From Acidobacteriota bacterium (GTDB taxonomy: Bacteria; Acidobacteriota; UBA4820; DSQY01), in assembly GCA_021813555.1 (NCBI GenBank), contig JAKAKG010000054.1:1-59724 (forward strand): a stretch of DNA of 59,724 nucleotides, in the 5' to 3' direction. Within the stretch, counting starts at the first letter, position 1; the number at the start of each line of letters is the position of its first letter. Both the position numbers and the translations under genes were made by a program. The notes below the pieces were generated by a model. It did no database searches. It worked only from the letters and a program-made list of their open reading frames with translations, and was not told the DNA's origin. This document shows, in pieces, positions 11,096 through 22,903 of this stretch.

Positions 11096-11234
11096 ATGCC
11101 GGAATGCCGAGACGGCGGCCCTCCCTTACAGCCGCTATCACCTATCGCCCTGCCTGCGAGACGCGATTAAGTGAGACGCGACGATCCGCTTTCCGCCTTC
11201 CGAATTCCGCTTTCCGAACTTCTCCCTTTCACCC

Positions 11235-11350
11235 CTGCTCCCCGCTCCCCGCTCCCTGCTCCCCGCTCCCCGCTCCCCGCTCCCTGCTCCCCGCTCCCTG
11301 CTCCCCGCTCCCTGCTCCCTGCTCCTCACTCCTCACTCCTCACTCCTCAC
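11235..11350. repeat. Heptameric tandem array (CCCGCTC / ACTCCTC units)
   Basis: About 115 bases consist almost entirely of 7-base units. CCCGCTC/CCTGCTC variants fill the first two thirds and ACTCCTC the last part. It lies between rmuC and the NifX-like gene. Upstream (about 11180-11220) the text CGCTTTCCGCCTTCCGAATTCCGC is a further short-unit run. The array ends about 45 bases before the next start codon, leaving room only for a short promoter (GCTATATTGAC). Confidence 0.85.
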
Positions 11351-14891: not shown

Positions 14892-17800
14892 CTAGGCGTG
14901 GCCGCCGCCGTTCTCGGAGGGCTTCACGAAGCTGCCCGTGAGCCACGTCTGGAAGCGGTCCATGTAGACATAAAACACGGGAGTCACGAATAGGGTGAGG
15001 AACTGGGAGAAGATGAGGCCGCCCACCACGGCGAGGCCCAGGGGGCGCCTGGATTCGGCGCCGGCGCCCAGGCCGAGGGCGATGGGGAGGGTGCCCATGA
15101 GGGCGGCCATGGTGGTCATCATGATGGGCCGGAAGCGGATGACGCAGGCTTCGTAGATGGCTTCCGCGGGCGCCTTGCCCTCTTTGCGCTGGGCTTCCAG
15201 GGCGAAGTCGATCATCATGATGCCGTTTTTCTTCACGAGGCCCACCAGCATGATGATGCCCACGAAGGCGTAGATGGACAGATCCACGCGGAAAATCAAC
15301 AGCGTGACGAGGGCGCCGAACCCGGCGAAGGGCAGGGCCGAGAGAATGGTCAGGGGGTGGATGAAGCTCTCGTAGAGAACGCCGAGCACGAGGTAGATCA
15401 CCAGGATGGCCAGGAGGAGAAGCCAGCCCAGGCCCTTCATGGAGGACTGGAAGGCTTGAGCCGTGCCCTGGAAGCTCGTGGTGACGGTGGCCGGGAGGGT
15501 CTGCAACGCGAGCTTCTGCACCTGCGCCACGGCATCGCCCAGGGATACGCCCGGCTTCAAGTTGAAGGAAATGGTCACGGAGGGGAGCTGGCCCGTGTGG
15601 TTGATGGAGAGCGGGCCCAAGCCCTGGCTGATTCGGGCGACGGCGCTGAGAGGCACGAGCTGGCCCGAGGAAGAATGGACGTAGAGCATGGAGAGGGCCT
15701 CGGGGTCTCGCTGGTACTGGGGCAGCACGTCCATGATCACGCGGTACGTGTTATTGGGAGCGTAGATGGTGGAAACCTGCCGGTCGCTGTAGGCATAGAA
15801 GAGAGCATCCTCCACCTGAGCCGCCGTGACTCCGAGGGTGGCCGCCTTGTCCCGGTCGATGGCCACCTCCGCCTGGGGATTCTTGAGGAGAAGATCGCTC
15901 ACCACGTCCAGCAGGCCTGGCATGGCGCGCATCTTGCTCTCCATGAGGGGCGCGTATTTGTAGAGCTCGTCCGTGTTGGAGGCCTGAAGGGTGACCTGGT
16001 AGAGGCTCTGGGACACGCGCCCTCCGATCTGAATGGGAGGGGGGTTCTGGATGAAGGTCATGATGCCGGGCACTTGGGCGAGCTGGGGGCGGAGCTTTTC
16101 GATCTCCTGGTCCACCGAAAGCTTCCTTTCGGAGCGCGGCTTGAACTTCATGAAGCAGATGCCCTGGTTGCTGGCCAGGAACCCCCTGGAACCCGCGGAG
16201 GACATGAAGGCCTCCACGTCGGGGTTCTTCTGGATGATGCTCATGACCTCCTTCTGGTGGCGCACCATGGATTCGAAGGAGATGCCCTCGGTGGCCCGGG
16301 TGAAGGCCACGGCCCGGCTCGTGTCCTCGCTGGGGAGAAAGCCCTTGGGAATGGCGATGAAGAGCCAAACGGTGAAGATGAGCACCACGGCGGAGAAAAC
16401 CATCACCAGGCGCCGGTGCGCCAGGGACCACTTCAGGCCTACTTCGTAGCGGTCCAGCATCCACTGGAAGCCCCGCTCCGACATGTCATAGATGCGGCCG
16501 TGATGGACTTCCGACTGGTGCTTGAGGAAACGGCTGGAGAGCATGGGCGTGAGGGTGATGGAGACGAAGCCGGAGATGAGGATGGCCATGCTGATGGTGA
16601 CGGCGAATTCCTGGAATAGGCGGCCAAGGATGCCGCCCATGAAGAGGATGGGGATGAAGACGGCCACGAGGGAGAAGGTCATGGAGAGGATCGTAAAACC
16701 CACCTCCCTCGACCCGTCCAGGGCGGCCTGGGTCCTGCTCTTGCCCATCTCCATGTGCCGGACGATGTTCTCCAGCATGACGATGGCGTCATCCACGACG
16801 AAGCCCACGGCCAGGGTGAGCGCCATGAGCGAGAGGTTGTCCATGCTGTAGCCCATGAGGTACATGACGGCGAAGGTGCCCACGATGGACATGGGCAGCG
16901 CCAGGCTGGGGATGACCGTGGCCGAAACGTTGCGCAGGAAGAGGAAGATGACCAGGATCACCAGGAACAGCGTGAGGAGGAGCGTGAACTTCACGTCCGA
17001 CACGGAGCTCCGGATGGACTCGGAGCGGTCGTAGAGGACGTTGAGGGACGTGGAGGCGGGGAGCTGCCGCTCGAAGTTGGGGATGAGCGACCGCACGGAC
17101 TGCACCACTTCCACGGTGTTGGTCCCCGGCTGGCGCTGGATGGCGAGGACGATGGCGCGCTCCGTGGACTTGGGATCCACGTACCAGGCCGCGGTTTTGT
17201 CGTTCTCCACGCTGTCCAAGACCCTGCCCAGGGCCCCCAGCCGCACGGGCTGGCCGTTGCGGTACGCCACGATGAGGGGCCTGTAGGCGGCCGCGTCCAG
17301 GAGCTGGCCGTTGGTATCCACCGTGTACGCCGTGTGCGCTCCGTAGAGGGTGCCCGTGGGCAGGTTCACGTTGCCGTTGGTCACGGCGTTGCCCACTTCG
17401 TCCATCCCGATGCCCTTGTTGGCGAGGGTGTTGGGATCCACCTGGATGCGCACGGCATACTTCTGCGAGCCGTAGACCATCACCTGGGCGACGCCGCTCA
17501 CCATGGAGATGCGCTGGGCCATCATGGTCTCGCCGTACTCATCGAGTTGGTTCAGGGGCAAGGTGGGCGAGGTGAGGGCCAGATAGAGGATGGGCTGGTC
17601 CGCCGGGTTCACCTTCTGGTAGGAAGGCGGATTCGGCATGTTCTGCGGCAGTTGGCCCTGGGCCACGGAGATGGCCGACTGCACGTCCAGCGCCGCCCCG
17701 TCCAGGTTGCGGCTGAGGTTGAACTGCAAGGTGATGCTCGTGGAGCCCAGGTAGCTGCTCGACGTCATGGAGTCGATGCCGGCGATGGTGGAGAACTGCT

Positions 17801-18005
17801 TTTCAAGCGGGAGGGCGACGGCCGAGGCCATAGTCTCGGGGCTGGCTCCCGGCAGCGTGGCGCTCACCTGAATGGTGGGAAAGTCCACGTTGGGCAAATC
17901 GTTCACGGGCAGGAGGCGGTACCCCGTGATGCCGAAGAGGAGGATGGCCAGCATGACCAGGGTCGTCATGACGGGACGCTTGATGAAGAGCTCGGAGATG
18001 TTCAT
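14892..18005 (-). CDS. RND multidrug efflux permease (HAE1, MdtB/MdtC-like)
   Basis: The 1037-residue inner-membrane proton/drug antiporter forms the pump of a tripartite efflux complex. The N-terminus MNISELFIKRPVMTTLVMLAILLFGITGYRLLPVNDLPNVDFPTIQV is typical of the MdtB/MdtC branch, and the length matches. The TM4 proton-relay aspartates are in LAVGFVVDDAIVMLENIVRHME. Two large periplasmic loops and the second half beginning near YEVGLKWSLAHRRLVM show the usual internal duplication, giving 12 TM segments. It is the last gene of the TetR-TolC-MFP-RND set; 133 bases of repeat-rich spacer separate it from the adaptor gene. Confidence 0.96.
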   Translation of the reverse strand: MNISELFIKRPVMTTLVMLAILLFGITGYRLLPVNDLPNVDFPTIQVSATLPGASPETMASAVALPLEKQFSTIAGIDSMTSSSYLGSTSITLQFNLSRNLDGAALDVQSAISVAQGQLPQNMPNPPSYQKVNPADQPILYLALTSPTLPLNQLDEYGETMMAQRISMVSGVAQVMVYGSQKYAVRIQVDPNTLANKGIGMDEVGNAVTNGNVNLPTGTLYGAHTAYTVDTNGQLLDAAAYRPLIVAYRNGQPVRLGALGRVLDSVENDKTAAWYVDPKSTERAIVLAIQRQPGTNTVEVVQSVRSLIPNFERQLPASTSLNVLYDRSESIRSSVSDVKFTLLLTLFLVILVIFLFLRNVSATVIPSLALPMSIVGTFAVMYLMGYSMDNLSLMALTLAVGFVVDDAIVMLENIVRHMEMGKSRTQAALDGSREVGFTILSMTFSLVAVFIPILFMGGILGRLFQEFAVTISMAILISGFVSITLTPMLSSRFLKHQSEVHHGRIYDMSERGFQWMLDRYEVGLKWSLAHRRLVMVFSAVVLIFTVWLFIAIPKGFLPSEDTSRAVAFTRATEGISFESMVRHQKEVMSIIQKNPDVEAFMSSAGSRGFLASNQGICFMKFKPRSERKLSVDQEIEKLRPQLAQVPGIMTFIQNPPPIQIGGRVSQSLYQVTLQASNTDELYKYAPLMESKMRAMPGLLDVVSDLLLKNPQAEVAIDRDKAATLGVTAAQVEDALFYAYSDRQVSTIYAPNNTYRVIMDVLPQYQRDPEALSMLYVHSSSGQLVPLSAVARISQGLGPLSINHTGQLPSVTISFNLKPGVSLGDAVAQVQKLALQTLPATVTTSFQGTAQAFQSSMKGLGWLLLLAILVIYLVLGVLYESFIHPLTILSALPFAGFGALVTLLIFRVDLSIYAFVGIIMLVGLVKKNGIMMIDFALEAQRKEGKAPAEAIYEACVIRFRPIMMTTMAALMGTLPIALGLGAGAESRRPLGLAVVGGLIFSQFLTLFVTPVFYVYMDRFQTWLTGSFVKPSENGGGHA

Positions 18006-18040
18006 GTCGTGACCTCCGGCAGGAAGCCTTCGGTGGCTCG

Positions 18041-18124
18041 GGAGCGGTGAGCGGGAAGCGGGGAGCGGGGAAGGGACGAGGAGAACAAGATGCCTTTCTC
18101 CCTGCTCCCTGCTCCCAGCTCCCG
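18041..18124. repeat. Inverted low-complexity arrays between adaptor and pump genes
   Basis: A G-rich arm at 18041-18072 (GGGAGCGGTGAGCGGGAAGCGGGGAGCGGGG) faces a C-rich arm at 18099-18124 (CTCCCTGCTCCCTGCTCCC...), with about 26 bases between. In the mRNA of the efflux operon this could form a stable stem between the adaptor and pump cistrons. Confidence 0.65.
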
Positions 18125-18138
18125 TCTTTGATGGATCA

Positions 18139-19368
18139 TCACTTACTGCCCCCTTGCGCCGCGGGCGGCTGGGTCCCGCCTTGGGACGCCTGAGGGGGCA
18201 CGATGGACACCTTGGCCCCGGGGAAGAGGCGAAGCTGGCCGTCGGTCACCACCTTTTCTCCGCCCTGGACCCCCTCCTCGATGACCGTCTCGCCGTTGCG
18301 GGACTGTCCCGTCTTCACGAGCCGCATGTCCACGGTCCCGTCGGGCTTGATGGTGTAGAGGTAGGCACCCTGCTGGCCCTGCTGGACGGCCTGCGTGGGC
18401 ACGAGCACGGCGCCCTTGATCATGGAGAGATCCAGGGTGACGTTGACGAATTGGCCCGGCCAGAGAGCCTTGTCCTCGTTGGGGAAGGTGGCTTTCAGGA
18501 GGATCGTGCCCGTGGCGCTGTCCACGGCGTTGTCGATGAAGCTCAGGCTGCCCGTGAAGGTCCCGCCGGAGGCGCCGGGGAAGGCGGCGGCCACGGCCAG
18601 CGGACCCTTTGCCTCCTCCCGCCGGATCTCGGCGAGCTGCTGCTCGGGCACGCTGAAGGCCACATAAACGGGCGTGATTTGGTTCAGGGTCACCAGGGGG
18701 ACGTCGTTGGCCTTCACGAGGTTGCCCTCCTGGACCAGCAGGTTGCCCAACCGGCCGTCCATGGAGGCCCGGATGGAGCAGTAGCCCAGGCTGATGGCCG
18801 CGTCCTGGACGTTCGCCTCGTCGGCCTTCACGGTCGCCTTGAGGGCCTCGGCGTTGGCGTTGGCATCGTCGAACTGCTGCTGGGTCACGTAGTCCTTCTT
18901 CACGAGGTCCGCGTAGCGGCTGGCCTGGGCGGCGGCGCTCACGAGCTGGGCCCTGTCCCTCGCGAGCTGGGCTTTGGCCTGGTCCAGGGCCGCCTGGTAG
19001 GGACGAGGATCAATGGTGAACAGGAGGTCGCCCTTGCGCACGTCCTGCCCTTCCTTGAAATGGACCTTCATGATCTGCCCGGCGACGAGTGCCTTCAGGG
19101 AGACCGTGTTGTAGGCCTCCACGGTACCGATGGCGGTCACCACCATGCGGACGTCCTTCTGGACGGCGTCCGCGGCCGTGACGGGGACGGCGGAGGGCGG
19201 CGGAGCCTTTTTGCCTCCGCAGGCCGTGGCGAGACCCAAAGCCCCGAGAGCCAGGAGGGCCAGCGCCGCGCGCCGCCCCCCGGAGGGCGGGCGCCGAGTG
19301 AAATCCACGGGCCGCGTCACGCGGAGGCGGCCACACCGCTGGGGTTCGAGAGGGTTCATGGGCGTCAT
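18139..19368 (-). CDS. RND efflux periplasmic adaptor (membrane fusion protein, MdtA/AcrA-like)
   Basis: The 409-residue adaptor links the RND pump to the TolC channel. A basic, Pro-rich cytoplasmic start is followed by a lipoprotein signal (ALALLALGALGLATACGG). The biotinyl-lipoyl half-motifs flank a coiled-coil hairpin (VSLKALVAGQIMKVHFKEGQDVRKGDLLFTIDPRPYQAAL ... ISLGYCSIRASMDGRLGNLLVQEGNLVKA). A beta-barrel domain follows (PVYVAFSVPEQQLAEIR). The C-terminus is Gln/Pro-rich. It overlaps the TolC gene by four bases and shares its operon. Confidence 0.95.
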   Translation of the reverse strand: MTPMNPLEPQRCGRLRVTRPVDFTRRPPSGGRRAALALLALGALGLATACGGKKAPPPSAVPVTAADAVQKDVRMVVTAIGTVEAYNTVSLKALVAGQIMKVHFKEGQDVRKGDLLFTIDPRPYQAALDQAKAQLARDRAQLVSAAAQASRYADLVKKDYVTQQQFDDANANAEALKATVKADEANVQDAAISLGYCSIRASMDGRLGNLLVQEGNLVKANDVPLVTLNQITPVYVAFSVPEQQLAEIRREEAKGPLAVAAAFPGASGGTFTGSLSFIDNAVDSATGTILLKATFPNEDKALWPGQFVNVTLDLSMIKGAVLVPTQAVQQGQQGAYLYTIKPDGTVDMRLVKTGQSRNGETVIEEGVQGGEKVVTDGQLRLFPGAKVSIVPPQASQGGTQPPAAQGGSK

Positions 19369-20906
19369 GGTTGGCCATCCTTTTTCGTTTCGGGAGCGGG
19401 AGCCATGGGAGAGGCCGCCGAGGGGGCGGCGCTCTGAGGCGCGATGTTGAGCTTGAGGGCCTGCACGTCCCGGGCGAGGGTCCCCGTGGAGTAGCTGAGC
19501 TGGGCCAGGGCCGTGAACCAGTTGGCCAGCGCCTGGATGCGCTGCCCGCGAGCATCTTCCAGGGCGGCCTGGGCGGTGAGAAGGTCCAGGATGGTCCCGA
19601 CGCCGGCCTTATAGCGGCCCAGGGCCACGTCGTGGGATTGGGTCGCGCTCTGGAGGAGATCCTCGCTGGTCTTGACCTGCTGCTCGGCGGTCTTGAGGCT
19701 GTAGTAGCTGGACCAGACCTGCAAGTCCACGGCCTGCTCCTGGCTCTTGAGCTGGGCCTCGGCGGTCTGAAGATCCGCCTTCGCCTGCACCACGTCGTAG
19801 CTGTGGGAGAAGCCCGTGAACAGGGGAAACTTGAGCTGGATCCCCATCTGATAGGTATTCCCGTACATCGTGGAGGCGTCGTAGTAGGTGCGGCCCAGAT
19901 TGGCCGTGGCGCTGAGCGAAGGATATCCCTCGGCTTTGATGGTCTTGACGTGCGCCCGGGCCTTCGCCACCTGGGCCCTGGCCGCGGCCAGGTCGGGCCG
20001 TTTGGCCTGGGCTTGCTCCAAGAAGCGGTCCACGGCCTCCGACGTCTCCTGGATGGGCAGGTCCGTGGGCGGCATGGCCACATCGTAGGGAACGGTGGGA
20101 GGGAGCCCCATGGCCGTGGCCAGGGCACCCCTCGTCGTCTGGATGGTACCCGTCAACCCGTCCGCCGCGAGCTTGGCCTGGGAGAGCTGAGTTTTGGCCT
20201 GAAGCACATCGGCGATGGTGGCGACCCCGGCGCGGTGGAGCTCTTGGGCCGAGGCGAGGTTGGTTTCCGCCTCCTTGACGGTGGCCTCCTGGGCCGAGAG
20301 CAGGGCCTTGGCGCTCACGTACTGGAAGAAGGCCTGCTGGACCTGGAGGATCACGGACTGGATGGAAGCGTTGTGGAGCCAGTCCGCCGACAGGAGAGCC
20401 TGACGTTTCTCCGCCAGCGCCGCCTCACGGCCGCCGAAGTCGTAGAGCAGCCAGCTCAGATCCGCCGTGGGGGCGTAGCTGCGCTGGTAGTAGGAGATCG
20501 CCCCGTTGGCCAGGGACCCCTCCGCCCGGGTCACGCCCGCCCCGATGTTGACCTGCGGGTAGTAGGTGCCCTTCTGGCTGCCGTAGGCCGCCGCGGCGGA
20601 ACGGGCCTCCGACCAGGCCATGGCGGTCTGGGGGCTGTTGCGGAGGGCCACGTCCACCACGTCGAGGAGGGTCAGAGAGGAGGCCCGGTCCAGCAGGTCC
20701 TGGGGGATCGCGGGCGCCTCGGACCGGGGCTGCACGGCCGCCACGGCTTTGGCCGGCGGCGTCCAGGGCACCTCGGGCGCCGGGGACGTAGAGGCCTCGC
20801 CGTAGAGTTTGGGGGGCGTGTGGATGCACCCGGCCATGGTCCCAAGCAAAACCGCCAGAGCCGCGGCGGAGGCGCCTCGCCGGGCGCCGGCCCTTCGCGC
20901 GCTCAT
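19365..20906 (-). CDS. TolC-family outer-membrane efflux lipoprotein
   Basis: The 513-residue outer-membrane channel has a lipoprotein signal (SAAALAVLLGTMAGC). It carries the two helical OEP repeats: TLLDVVDVALRNSPQTAMAWSEARSAAAAYGSQKGTYYPQVNIGAGV starts the first and FLEQAQAKRPDLAAARAQVAKARAHVKTIKAEGYPSLSATANLGRTYY the second. GYKAGVGTILDLLTAQAALEDAR-type text (RYKAGVGTILDLLTAQ) marks the alpha-barrel tip region. It would complete the tripartite pump with the two following genes. Four-base overlaps on both sides (TetR and adaptor) show tight translational coupling. Confidence 0.95.
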   Translation of the reverse strand: MSARRAGARRGASAAALAVLLGTMAGCIHTPPKLYGEASTSPAPEVPWTPPAKAVAAVQPRSEAPAIPQDLLDRASSLTLLDVVDVALRNSPQTAMAWSEARSAAAAYGSQKGTYYPQVNIGAGVTRAEGSLANGAISYYQRSYAPTADLSWLLYDFGGREAALAEKRQALLSADWLHNASIQSVILQVQQAFFQYVSAKALLSAQEATVKEAETNLASAQELHRAGVATIADVLQAKTQLSQAKLAADGLTGTIQTTRGALATAMGLPPTVPYDVAMPPTDLPIQETSEAVDRFLEQAQAKRPDLAAARAQVAKARAHVKTIKAEGYPSLSATANLGRTYYDASTMYGNTYQMGIQLKFPLFTGFSHSYDVVQAKADLQTAEAQLKSQEQAVDLQVWSSYYSLKTAEQQVKTSEDLLQSATQSHDVALGRYKAGVGTILDLLTAQAALEDARGQRIQALANWFTALAQLSYSTGTLARDVQALKLNIAPQSAAPSAASPMAPAPETKKDGQP

Positions 20907-21544
20907 GGCCGCGGCGGGCGGGCCGCCCGCTTCGGGGATGGTGAGGATATCCCGTTCATGAAAACGTCCGTGAGCATCCGCGCGTCCTCCTCGACGGAGC
21001 CCGGCGACTCCAGGAGGAGCCGCTGGGCAATCATAGCTATGTCCGCCTCGATGAGCATGGCGGCCACTTTAACCGGGTCCAGGGGCCTGATGGCCCGTGC
21101 CCGGACCCCCTCCCGCAGAACCCTCGCGATCTTATCCACATACGTCCGAAACGGGTCCGACTGCTGGCGCCGCAGGCGCGTCTCCGCCAGCTGGCGCTCC
21201 CACAGCAGAACCCGGAAGAACTCCCGGTGCTCGTCGAAGTAGCTGAGGTGGCGCTCCACGAATCGGCCGATCTTCTGCACCGGAGGAAGCTCGCCGTCCA
21301 GGATCCCGAAAAGCTCCTGGCGCATGGGAGCCATGCTCGCCTCCTTGACCGATTCCAGAAGCTCCTTCTTGTCCTTGTAGTAGACGTAGAGGGTGCCCTT
21401 GGCCACACCCGCCTCTGCGGCCACCCGTTCCATGGTGAGCCCCTCCGCTCCCTTCCGGGAGAGGATGCGCACCACCGCGTCCTGGATGCCCTTCTTGCAG
21501 AAGGATTCCCACTGGCTCTTTCTGTCCGACTTCGCCCGGGCCAT
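20903..21544 (-). CDS. TetR/AcrR family transcriptional repressor of the efflux operon
   Basis: The 213-residue regulator has the N-terminal TetR DNA-binding domain (QDAVVRILSRKGAEGLTMERVAAEAGVAKGTLYVYYKDKKELLESV, about 19-64) and a ligand-binding helical C-terminus. The C-terminal tail is Pro/Arg-rich (SPSPKRAARPPRP). It is the first gene of the efflux operon and overlaps tolC by four bases. A sigma-70 promoter and an inverted repeat lie directly upstream, so it most likely represses its own operon until a pump substrate binds. The inducer is unknown. Confidence 0.94.
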   Translation of the reverse strand: MARAKSDRKSQWESFCKKGIQDAVVRILSRKGAEGLTMERVAAEAGVAKGTLYVYYKDKKELLESVKEASMAPMRQELFGILDGELPPVQKIGRFVERHLSYFDEHREFFRVLLWERQLAETRLRRQQSDPFRTYVDKIARVLREGVRARAIRPLDPVKVAAMLIEADIAMIAQRLLLESPGSVEEDARMLTDVFMNGISSPSPKRAARPPRP

Positions 21545-21723: not shown

Positions 21724-21760
21724 CCGCTCCCCGCTCCCCGCTCCCCGCTCCCCGCTTCCG
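21724..21760. repeat. Heptameric array (GCTCCCC units)
   Basis: Four to five copies of GCTCCCC/GCTTCCG in the spacer between the divergent TetR operon promoter and the end of selD. It shares the unit with the arrays at 9316, 11235 and 18099. Confidence 0.8.
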
Positions 21761-21764
21761 GCTC

Positions 21765-22814
21765 TTAGGGCACCAGGCGGATGCGGGGCGGTCCCGCCGC
21801 GAAGGTTCCTACGTTCCAGGACCGCTGGCCCCGCCGCTCGAAGGCGCGCAGGAGGGCCGCTTCGATGCCGGGCGGCACGGCGAGGAGGAGGCCGCCCGAC
21901 GTCTGGGCATCGGCGGCCATGAGGAGGCGGTGCTCGGGGATCCCGGAGGTTCCGTCCAGATTTGCCAGGACCGAATCGCGATTCGCGAAGGTTCCCCCGG
22001 GGACGTTCTGGTCCATGGCCTGCGCCTCGGTTCCCGCGAAGAACGGCAGGGCATCAGGGCGCACCTCGGCGCCGAGCCCGCCCTCCACGCACATCTCCAG
22101 GAGGTGGCCGAGGAATCCGAAGCCCGTCACGTCCGTGGCGCCTTTTACGCCCGCCTCCACCGCCGACTCGGCAGCAGCCCGGTTGAGCAAGCTCATAGAC
22201 GCCACCGCCTCGGCGAAGGCCTGGTCACTCAGGTCGCCCCCCTTGTAGGCCGTGGACAGAATACCCGTGCCGAGCGGTTTGGTGAGGTAGATCCTGTCTC
22301 CAGGGAGGGCGCCGCCCTTGCGCATGAGCCGGTCCGGGCGGACCTCGCCCACCACGGCCAGGCCGTACTTGGGTTCGGCGTCATCCACCGTATGGCCCCC
22401 GACGATGAGGCACCCTGCTTCGACGGCCTTCGCCGCGCCGCCTTTGAGGATGAGGGTCATCTCGTCGAGGCGGTAGGTCCGGGTGGGATAGCACATGAGG
22501 TTCAGGGCCAGGACGGGCCTTCCGCCCATGGCGTACACGTCAGAAAACGCGTTGGCGGCGGCGATTTGGCCGAAGGTGAAAGGATCGTCCACGATGGGGG
22601 TGAAGTAGTCCGTGGTGAACAGCATCACCCTGTCCGCGTCCCAAAGGTACGCGGCGGCGTCCTCCACGTGACCGGAGTCCGTGAGGAGCCTCTCGTCCGC
22701 CATGGGTGGCAGCTGGCGGAGCACCTCCGCCAGGTCCAGGGGACTGATCTTGCAGGCTCAGCCGGCGCCGTGACTCAGGGCCGTCAGCCGTCCGATCTTT
22801 GGACGCTCGGGCAT
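21765..22814 (-). CDS. selD: Selenide, water dikinase (selenophosphate synthase) with in-frame UGA selenocysteine
   Basis: SelD makes selenophosphate, the selenium donor for selenocysteine and selenouridine. The ORF track starts this gene late (22724) because a TGA interrupts it. Reading from the ATG at 22814 gives MPERPKIGRLTALSHGAG-U-ACKISPLDLAEVLRQLPP. The TGA (22760-22758) sits exactly where SelD proteins have the catalytic Cys or Sec (E. coli SHGAGCGCK, Cys17), so residue 19 is selenocysteine. The rest is canonical: LFTTDYFTPIVDDPFTFGQIAAANAFSDVYAMGG, GGHTVDDAEPKYGL and GATDVTGFGFLGHL. Total length is about 349 residues. A SECIS-like hairpin follows the UGA. It lies 89 bases after the PEGA-protein gene on the same strand. 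Confidence 0.95.
22713..22733 (-). promoter_or_regulatory. Bacterial SECIS-like hairpin in selD mRNA
   Basis: Starting 25 bases after the UGA, CUGGCGGAG-GUG-CUCCGCCAG forms a perfect 9-bp stem with a GUG loop inside the coding sequence. Bacterial SECIS elements are short stem-loops with a G/U-containing apical loop a few tens of bases after the UGA that recruit SelB. The position, size and loop sequence fit. Confidence 0.7.
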
Positions 22815-22903
22815 AAGGTCTCTCCAAATGAAGCCGAACCGCCAAGACACCCAGAGACGAGGAAAATTTAGCCTTGGTTCCGAATCCCTTTCACTCTCGG
22901 TGC

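Follow-up and report, generated by a model that had tools for sequence, protein, structure and literature searches.

The DNA analyzed here (the window, 59,724 nucleotides in full) is contig C191 of an acidobacterial metagenome-assembled genome (MAG), a 3.3-Mb draft of 235 contigs with 98.6% completeness and 66% GC. Its minus strand carries a selD gene with an in-frame UGA, where the following features were assigned:

21765-22814, minus strand: selD, selenide, water dikinase (selenophosphate synthetase), 349 codons plus a TAA stop with the in-frame UGA as codon 19; from the sequence, TIGR00476, AIRS/AIRS_C and the alignment with E. coli SelD.
22816-22827, minus strand: probable ribosome-binding site, purine-rich GGAGAG 5' of the ATG; assigned by eye, unscored.
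22758-22760, minus strand: UGA codon, almost surely read as selenocysteine (Sec19); aligned with the Cys of E. coli SelD, TGA in nine of nine order-level SelD genes.
22713-22733, minus strand: bSECIS-type hairpin of 9 bp with a GUG apical loop, 33 nt from UGA to loop; from structure, covariation and absence after Cys codons.
22722-22724, minus strand: GTG in the hairpin loop, taken by the table-11 ORF caller as start of a truncated 319-aa SelD (ORF 21765-22724).

From the ATG at 22814 the minus strand reads MPERPKIGRLTALSHGAG-U-ACKISPLDLAEVLRQLP in one frame to the TAA at 21767-21765. Downstream of LSHGAG-UGA (UGA at 22760-22758) this frame continues as ACKISPLDLAEVL and meets no further stop before the TAA. 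The first-pass annotation had described an ATG-initiated frame reading LSHGAG-TGA into the annotated SelD ORF, and its coordinates, frame and residue position were right when read from the sequence and translation. The 349-residue read-through product matched TIGR00476 with 345.7 bits (cut-off 125) over residues 9-315, corresponding to profile positions 1-308 of 311, and contains both AIR-synthase-type domains, AIRS and AIRS_C. Alignment with E. coli SelD placed SHGAGCGCK over SHGAG-U-ACK, which puts the UGA at the Cys/Sec position, as had been proposed. The N-terminal [C/U]xxK motif, which comprises the redox Cys or Sec and a Lys, is present as GAGUACK, opposite GAGCGCK in the E. coli protein.

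The standard-code ORF list contains SelD only as 21765-22724, 319 aa with a GTG start; the ORF track indeed breaks the gene at the UGA, as the same annotation had noted. The called start coincides with the hairpin's apical loop, so that the motif with Sec/Cys and Lys is missing from the called protein. The existence of this table-11 ORF might suggest that selD is a pseudogene or that the 319-aa protein from GTG 22724 is the true product, but such a protein would start inside a hairpin loop and would be devoid of the GAGUACK motif, its redox residue and its Lys. Furthermore, the 18 codons 5' of the UGA show synonymous changes only within the genus, which argues that the pre-UGA part is translated as protein. 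The conserved peptide runs on across the UGA in all relatives, and the genome, which is equipped with SelA, SelB and tRNA-Sec, has no other selD. A pseudogene was rejected, and we give either form of this explanation only a very slight chance. Under the preferred reading, a full-length SelD translated through the UGA, automatic calling would shorten the protein to a start that is really the SECIS loop, and public annotations of this group probably omit selenoproteins or give them in shortened form.

As to the surroundings of the gene, the genes at 14892-21544 on the minus strand, downstream of selD, encode a TetR-type regulator followed by TolC, a periplasmic adaptor and an RND permease. This operon is an ordinary multidrug-type efflux system, unrelated to selenium. 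Tandem arrays of heptamers (GGGAGCG / CCCCGCT) are found in or beside gene ends at 21724-21764, 18040-18071 and 11233-11339 of the window, one of them just past the selD stop codon. Similar read-throughs of the type GAGSGERGAG occur on contig C187 (L009).

Exactly one in-frame TGA, always in the same column, was present in all nine full-length SelD matches of the order. These sequences are 50-98% identical to the SelD studied here and come from separate MAGs, including BP8.bin17, WY3.bin59, BP9.bin43 and DBS2-1.bin89; the nearest named relatives are Acidobacteria MAGs, with SelD identities of 98%, 81%, 71% and 70%. Four order members, two of which are less than 90% complete, lacked a full SelD match. 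Across 106 fetched loci, a set in which some genes occur twice as drawn from two collections, the codon at the Sec/Cys position was TGA in 72 and TGC or TGT in 32, with the position not reached in the other 2. The column was placed by profile alignment; initial motif patterns missed many loci. Within the phylum, many SelD matches without TGA sit in frames of about 750-800 residues and are taken to be fusion forms. The UGA is aligned with Cys or Sec in the homologues and the reading frame is conserved on both sides of it. Since TGA is one base away from TGC and TGT and the source is a metagenome assembly of 235 contigs, a Cys codon could have been turned into TGA by a sequencing or assembly error. 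However, the nine genes from separate MAGs share the TGA down to 50% protein identity, and the covarying hairpin described below follows TGA forms only. The independent assemblies already refute such an error, which was rejected and to which we assign a negligible probability.

The hairpin 3' of the UGA reads CTGGCGGAG-GTG-CTCCGCCAG in the DNA (22733-22713) and CUGGCGGAG-GUG-CUCCGCCAG as RNA. It is a perfect 9-bp stem, as previously described, that begins with base 25 after the UGA; 33 nt lie between UGA and loop, and the folding energy of the hairpin in isolation is -15.7 kcal/mol. Published constraints on bSECIS elements (PMC13188914, Fig. 2) are an apical loop of 3-9 nt, an upper stem of 4-16 bp, a G in the first two loop positions, a UGA-to-loop distance of 16-37 nt and an MFE of -7.5 kcal/mol or lower. 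The element agrees with all of them, with its 3-nt GUG loop, 9 bp, 33 nt and -15.7 kcal/mol. Folding and scoring of the post-UGA stretch against a bacterial SECIS model, the check that had been suggested, thus gave agreement with the published rules, together with a z-score of -0.29 against dinucleotide shuffles for the 64-nt stretch, which overall is not unusually stable for its composition. Raw stability being unexceptional, the support for the hairpin comes from its position, its loop and its covariation. When the same peptide was recoded synonymously with local codon usage, nine contiguous pairs arose by chance in 1.9% of trials. Scanning the window with Rfam at gathering thresholds gave no hit, which would be expected if the diversity of bacterial SECIS elements exceeds what a single family can capture.

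Covariation was evaluated in two sets of sequences. Pairing was seen in 91.7% of the cells in an alignment of 20 UGA-type SelDs, and six of the nine pairs show double changes; there were 21 double-change cells, whereas shuffling gave 5.5 and the slid controls gave 1-6. This alignment leans towards structure because it was hand-picked from sequences with visible hairpins. In the unselected test on 65 distinct UGA sequences, the mean number of contiguous pairs was 5.22, against 3.18 when synonymous codons were swapped between sequences, and none of 2000 such trials reached the pairing of the UGA-type genes. The 32 Cys-type SelDs showed no pairing excess, with at most 3 contiguous pairs and no hairpin. 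The covariation overlaps the conserved peptide DLAEVLRQL, so that part of the hairpin signal is codon-driven. About half of the UGA-containing genes, mostly the more distant ones, pair poorly in this exact register, and their elements are probably placed differently.

The first-pass annotation had expected selA, selB and selC elsewhere in the genome and had named the absence of selB or selC as evidence against its reading; all three were found. A tRNA-Sec gene at C187:56517 scored 72.8 bits (gathering score 47) and was identified by ARAGORN as tRNA-SeC with anticodon tca (UCA). SelB, a 628-aa ORF on C78, scored 328 bits against a cut-off of 242, and SelA on C186 463 bits against 268. Together with the single-copy selD, selA, selB and selC are thus united in one genome. 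YbbB (TIGR03167) gave no match in the 98.6% complete genome, and the combination SelD plus YbbB of the selenouridine trait was not found. In view of the absence of YbbB, selenophosphate seems to be used for Sec synthesis in this genome. A NifS/IscS-type cysteine desulfurase is encoded directly 3' of selB on the same strand (L130:740-1918, minus strand) and could supply selenide to SelD.

A family-by-family survey yielded at least two more genes with a conserved in-frame UGA and a bSECIS-like hairpin, a peroxiredoxin (FVUPTE) and a thioredoxin-TPR protein (ADWUGAC), in line with the earlier expectation that further selenoproteins would be truncated. The Sec-type peroxiredoxin (G000:C44:10057-10776, minus strand; L155, L135) reads YPGDFTFV-U-PTE and, scanned with C for U, scored 384.6 against the NCBIfam PrxU cut-off of 270. 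Close relatives retain an in-frame TGA, which in four cases was seen at the identical codon. The peroxiredoxin gene has a strong hairpin with a GGUC loop that begins 17 nt 3' of the UGA, and its stem shows covariation (GGCGGC/GCCGCC vs GUCAGC/GCUGAC); Cys-type homologues lack the hairpin. The thioredoxin-TPR protein (G000:C208:994-2061, minus strand; L167, relatives L168-L176) contains YADW-U-GACKK and an apparent signal peptide, and matched no NCBIfam family above cut-off. One TGA was found in 10 of the 11 full-length matches at order level. Its local hairpin has 4 bp and a CGUGAU loop 21 nt from the UGA; it is weak alone (-3.3) and nested in a larger fold (-14.3). Among PF00085 matches, a UGA occurred only in this same gene. 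Matches to the CMD/AhpD family contained none, and in the molybdopterin oxidoreductases (FdhA-like) no UGA was seen inside the Molybdopterin match, nor in the remaining coding sequence of those frames that were inspected by eye. A list of all in-frame TGAs in stop-to-stop frames was uninformative because non-coding frames of a 66% GC genome are full of TGAs.

Three genes with an in-frame UGA might also point to a genome-wide reassignment of this codon, for instance to Trp or Gly. Against this, three neighboring genes of the window (18139-19368, 19365-20906 and 20903-21544) end in TGA, all three in-frame UGAs fall on known redox Cys positions, and the genome encodes Sec tRNA, SelA and SelB. A general code change was rejected on this basis, its likelihood being vanishingly small. 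Returning to UGA as a Sec codon, the thioredoxin-TPR proteins may represent an unnamed selenoprotein subfamily conserved in the order, which with PrxU and SelD would make up a small selenoproteome with no Sec formate dehydrogenase among the molybdopterin oxidoreductases seen; we put this forward tentatively, at less than even confidence. If true, the reason to keep Sec decoding would be redox-centered rather than formate-centered. The order-wide thioredoxin-TPR selenoprotein is the least familiar by-product of this analysis.

Computationally, the locus combines an open frame, homology to SelD, a covarying hairpin and a conserved UGA with a complete Sec gene set in the genome. We are very nearly certain that the UGA at codon 19 of selD is decoded as Sec, the insertion itself being inferred from established biology; the claim that the organism decodes UGA in this way is supported by the Sec genes, the conserved UGA, the hairpin and the further UGA-containing redox genes. 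The ribosome would meet the UGA 18 codons into selD, and the hairpin just 3' of it would recruit SelB-GTP with Sec-tRNA(Sec), leading to Sec insertion where termination would otherwise occur. Judging from what is established for such enzymes, Sec19, beside the conserved Lys of UACK, would take part in the formation of selenophosphate from selenide and ATP. With this product SelA would then build Sec on tRNA(Sec), also for SelD itself, which would make SelD dependent on its own product.

Compared to known systems, E. coli SelD (PDB 3u0o), a Cys-type enzyme, is homologous over residues 9-320 (E 4.6e-66) and shares SHGAG-x-x-CK, but has Cys where the present SelD has Sec19. The SelD of PDB 2yye and 2zod, which we take to be that of Aquifex aeolicus, is also homologous (E 4.3e-56). 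Its deposited sequence has a Cys at the Sec position (SSGCAAK), presumably in place of the native Sec. The finding confirms that Sec is decoded in an uncultured order of acidobacteria, and it opens no long-standing question, as Sec-containing SelD is long established and the arrangement is well known. Mariotti et al. 2015 (PMC4561486) found SelD in 26% of reference prokaryotic genomes; 19% of these SelDs contain Sec, the position of which never varies, and bSECIS elements were recovered in the Sec-type genes. SelD also ranks among the two most frequent selenoproteins of bacteria (Zhang et al. 2006, PMC1794560) and is entered as UxxK, experimentally verified, in a 2026 selenoproteome review (PMC13188914). 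In the light of this literature the present case is ordinary in kind. It shares with Sec-type bacterial SelD (TIGR00476, UxxK; PMC13188914) the family, the Sec position followed by xxK, the bSECIS immediately downstream and the full Sec machinery; there is no difference in kind, the lineage here being an uncultured acidobacterial order.
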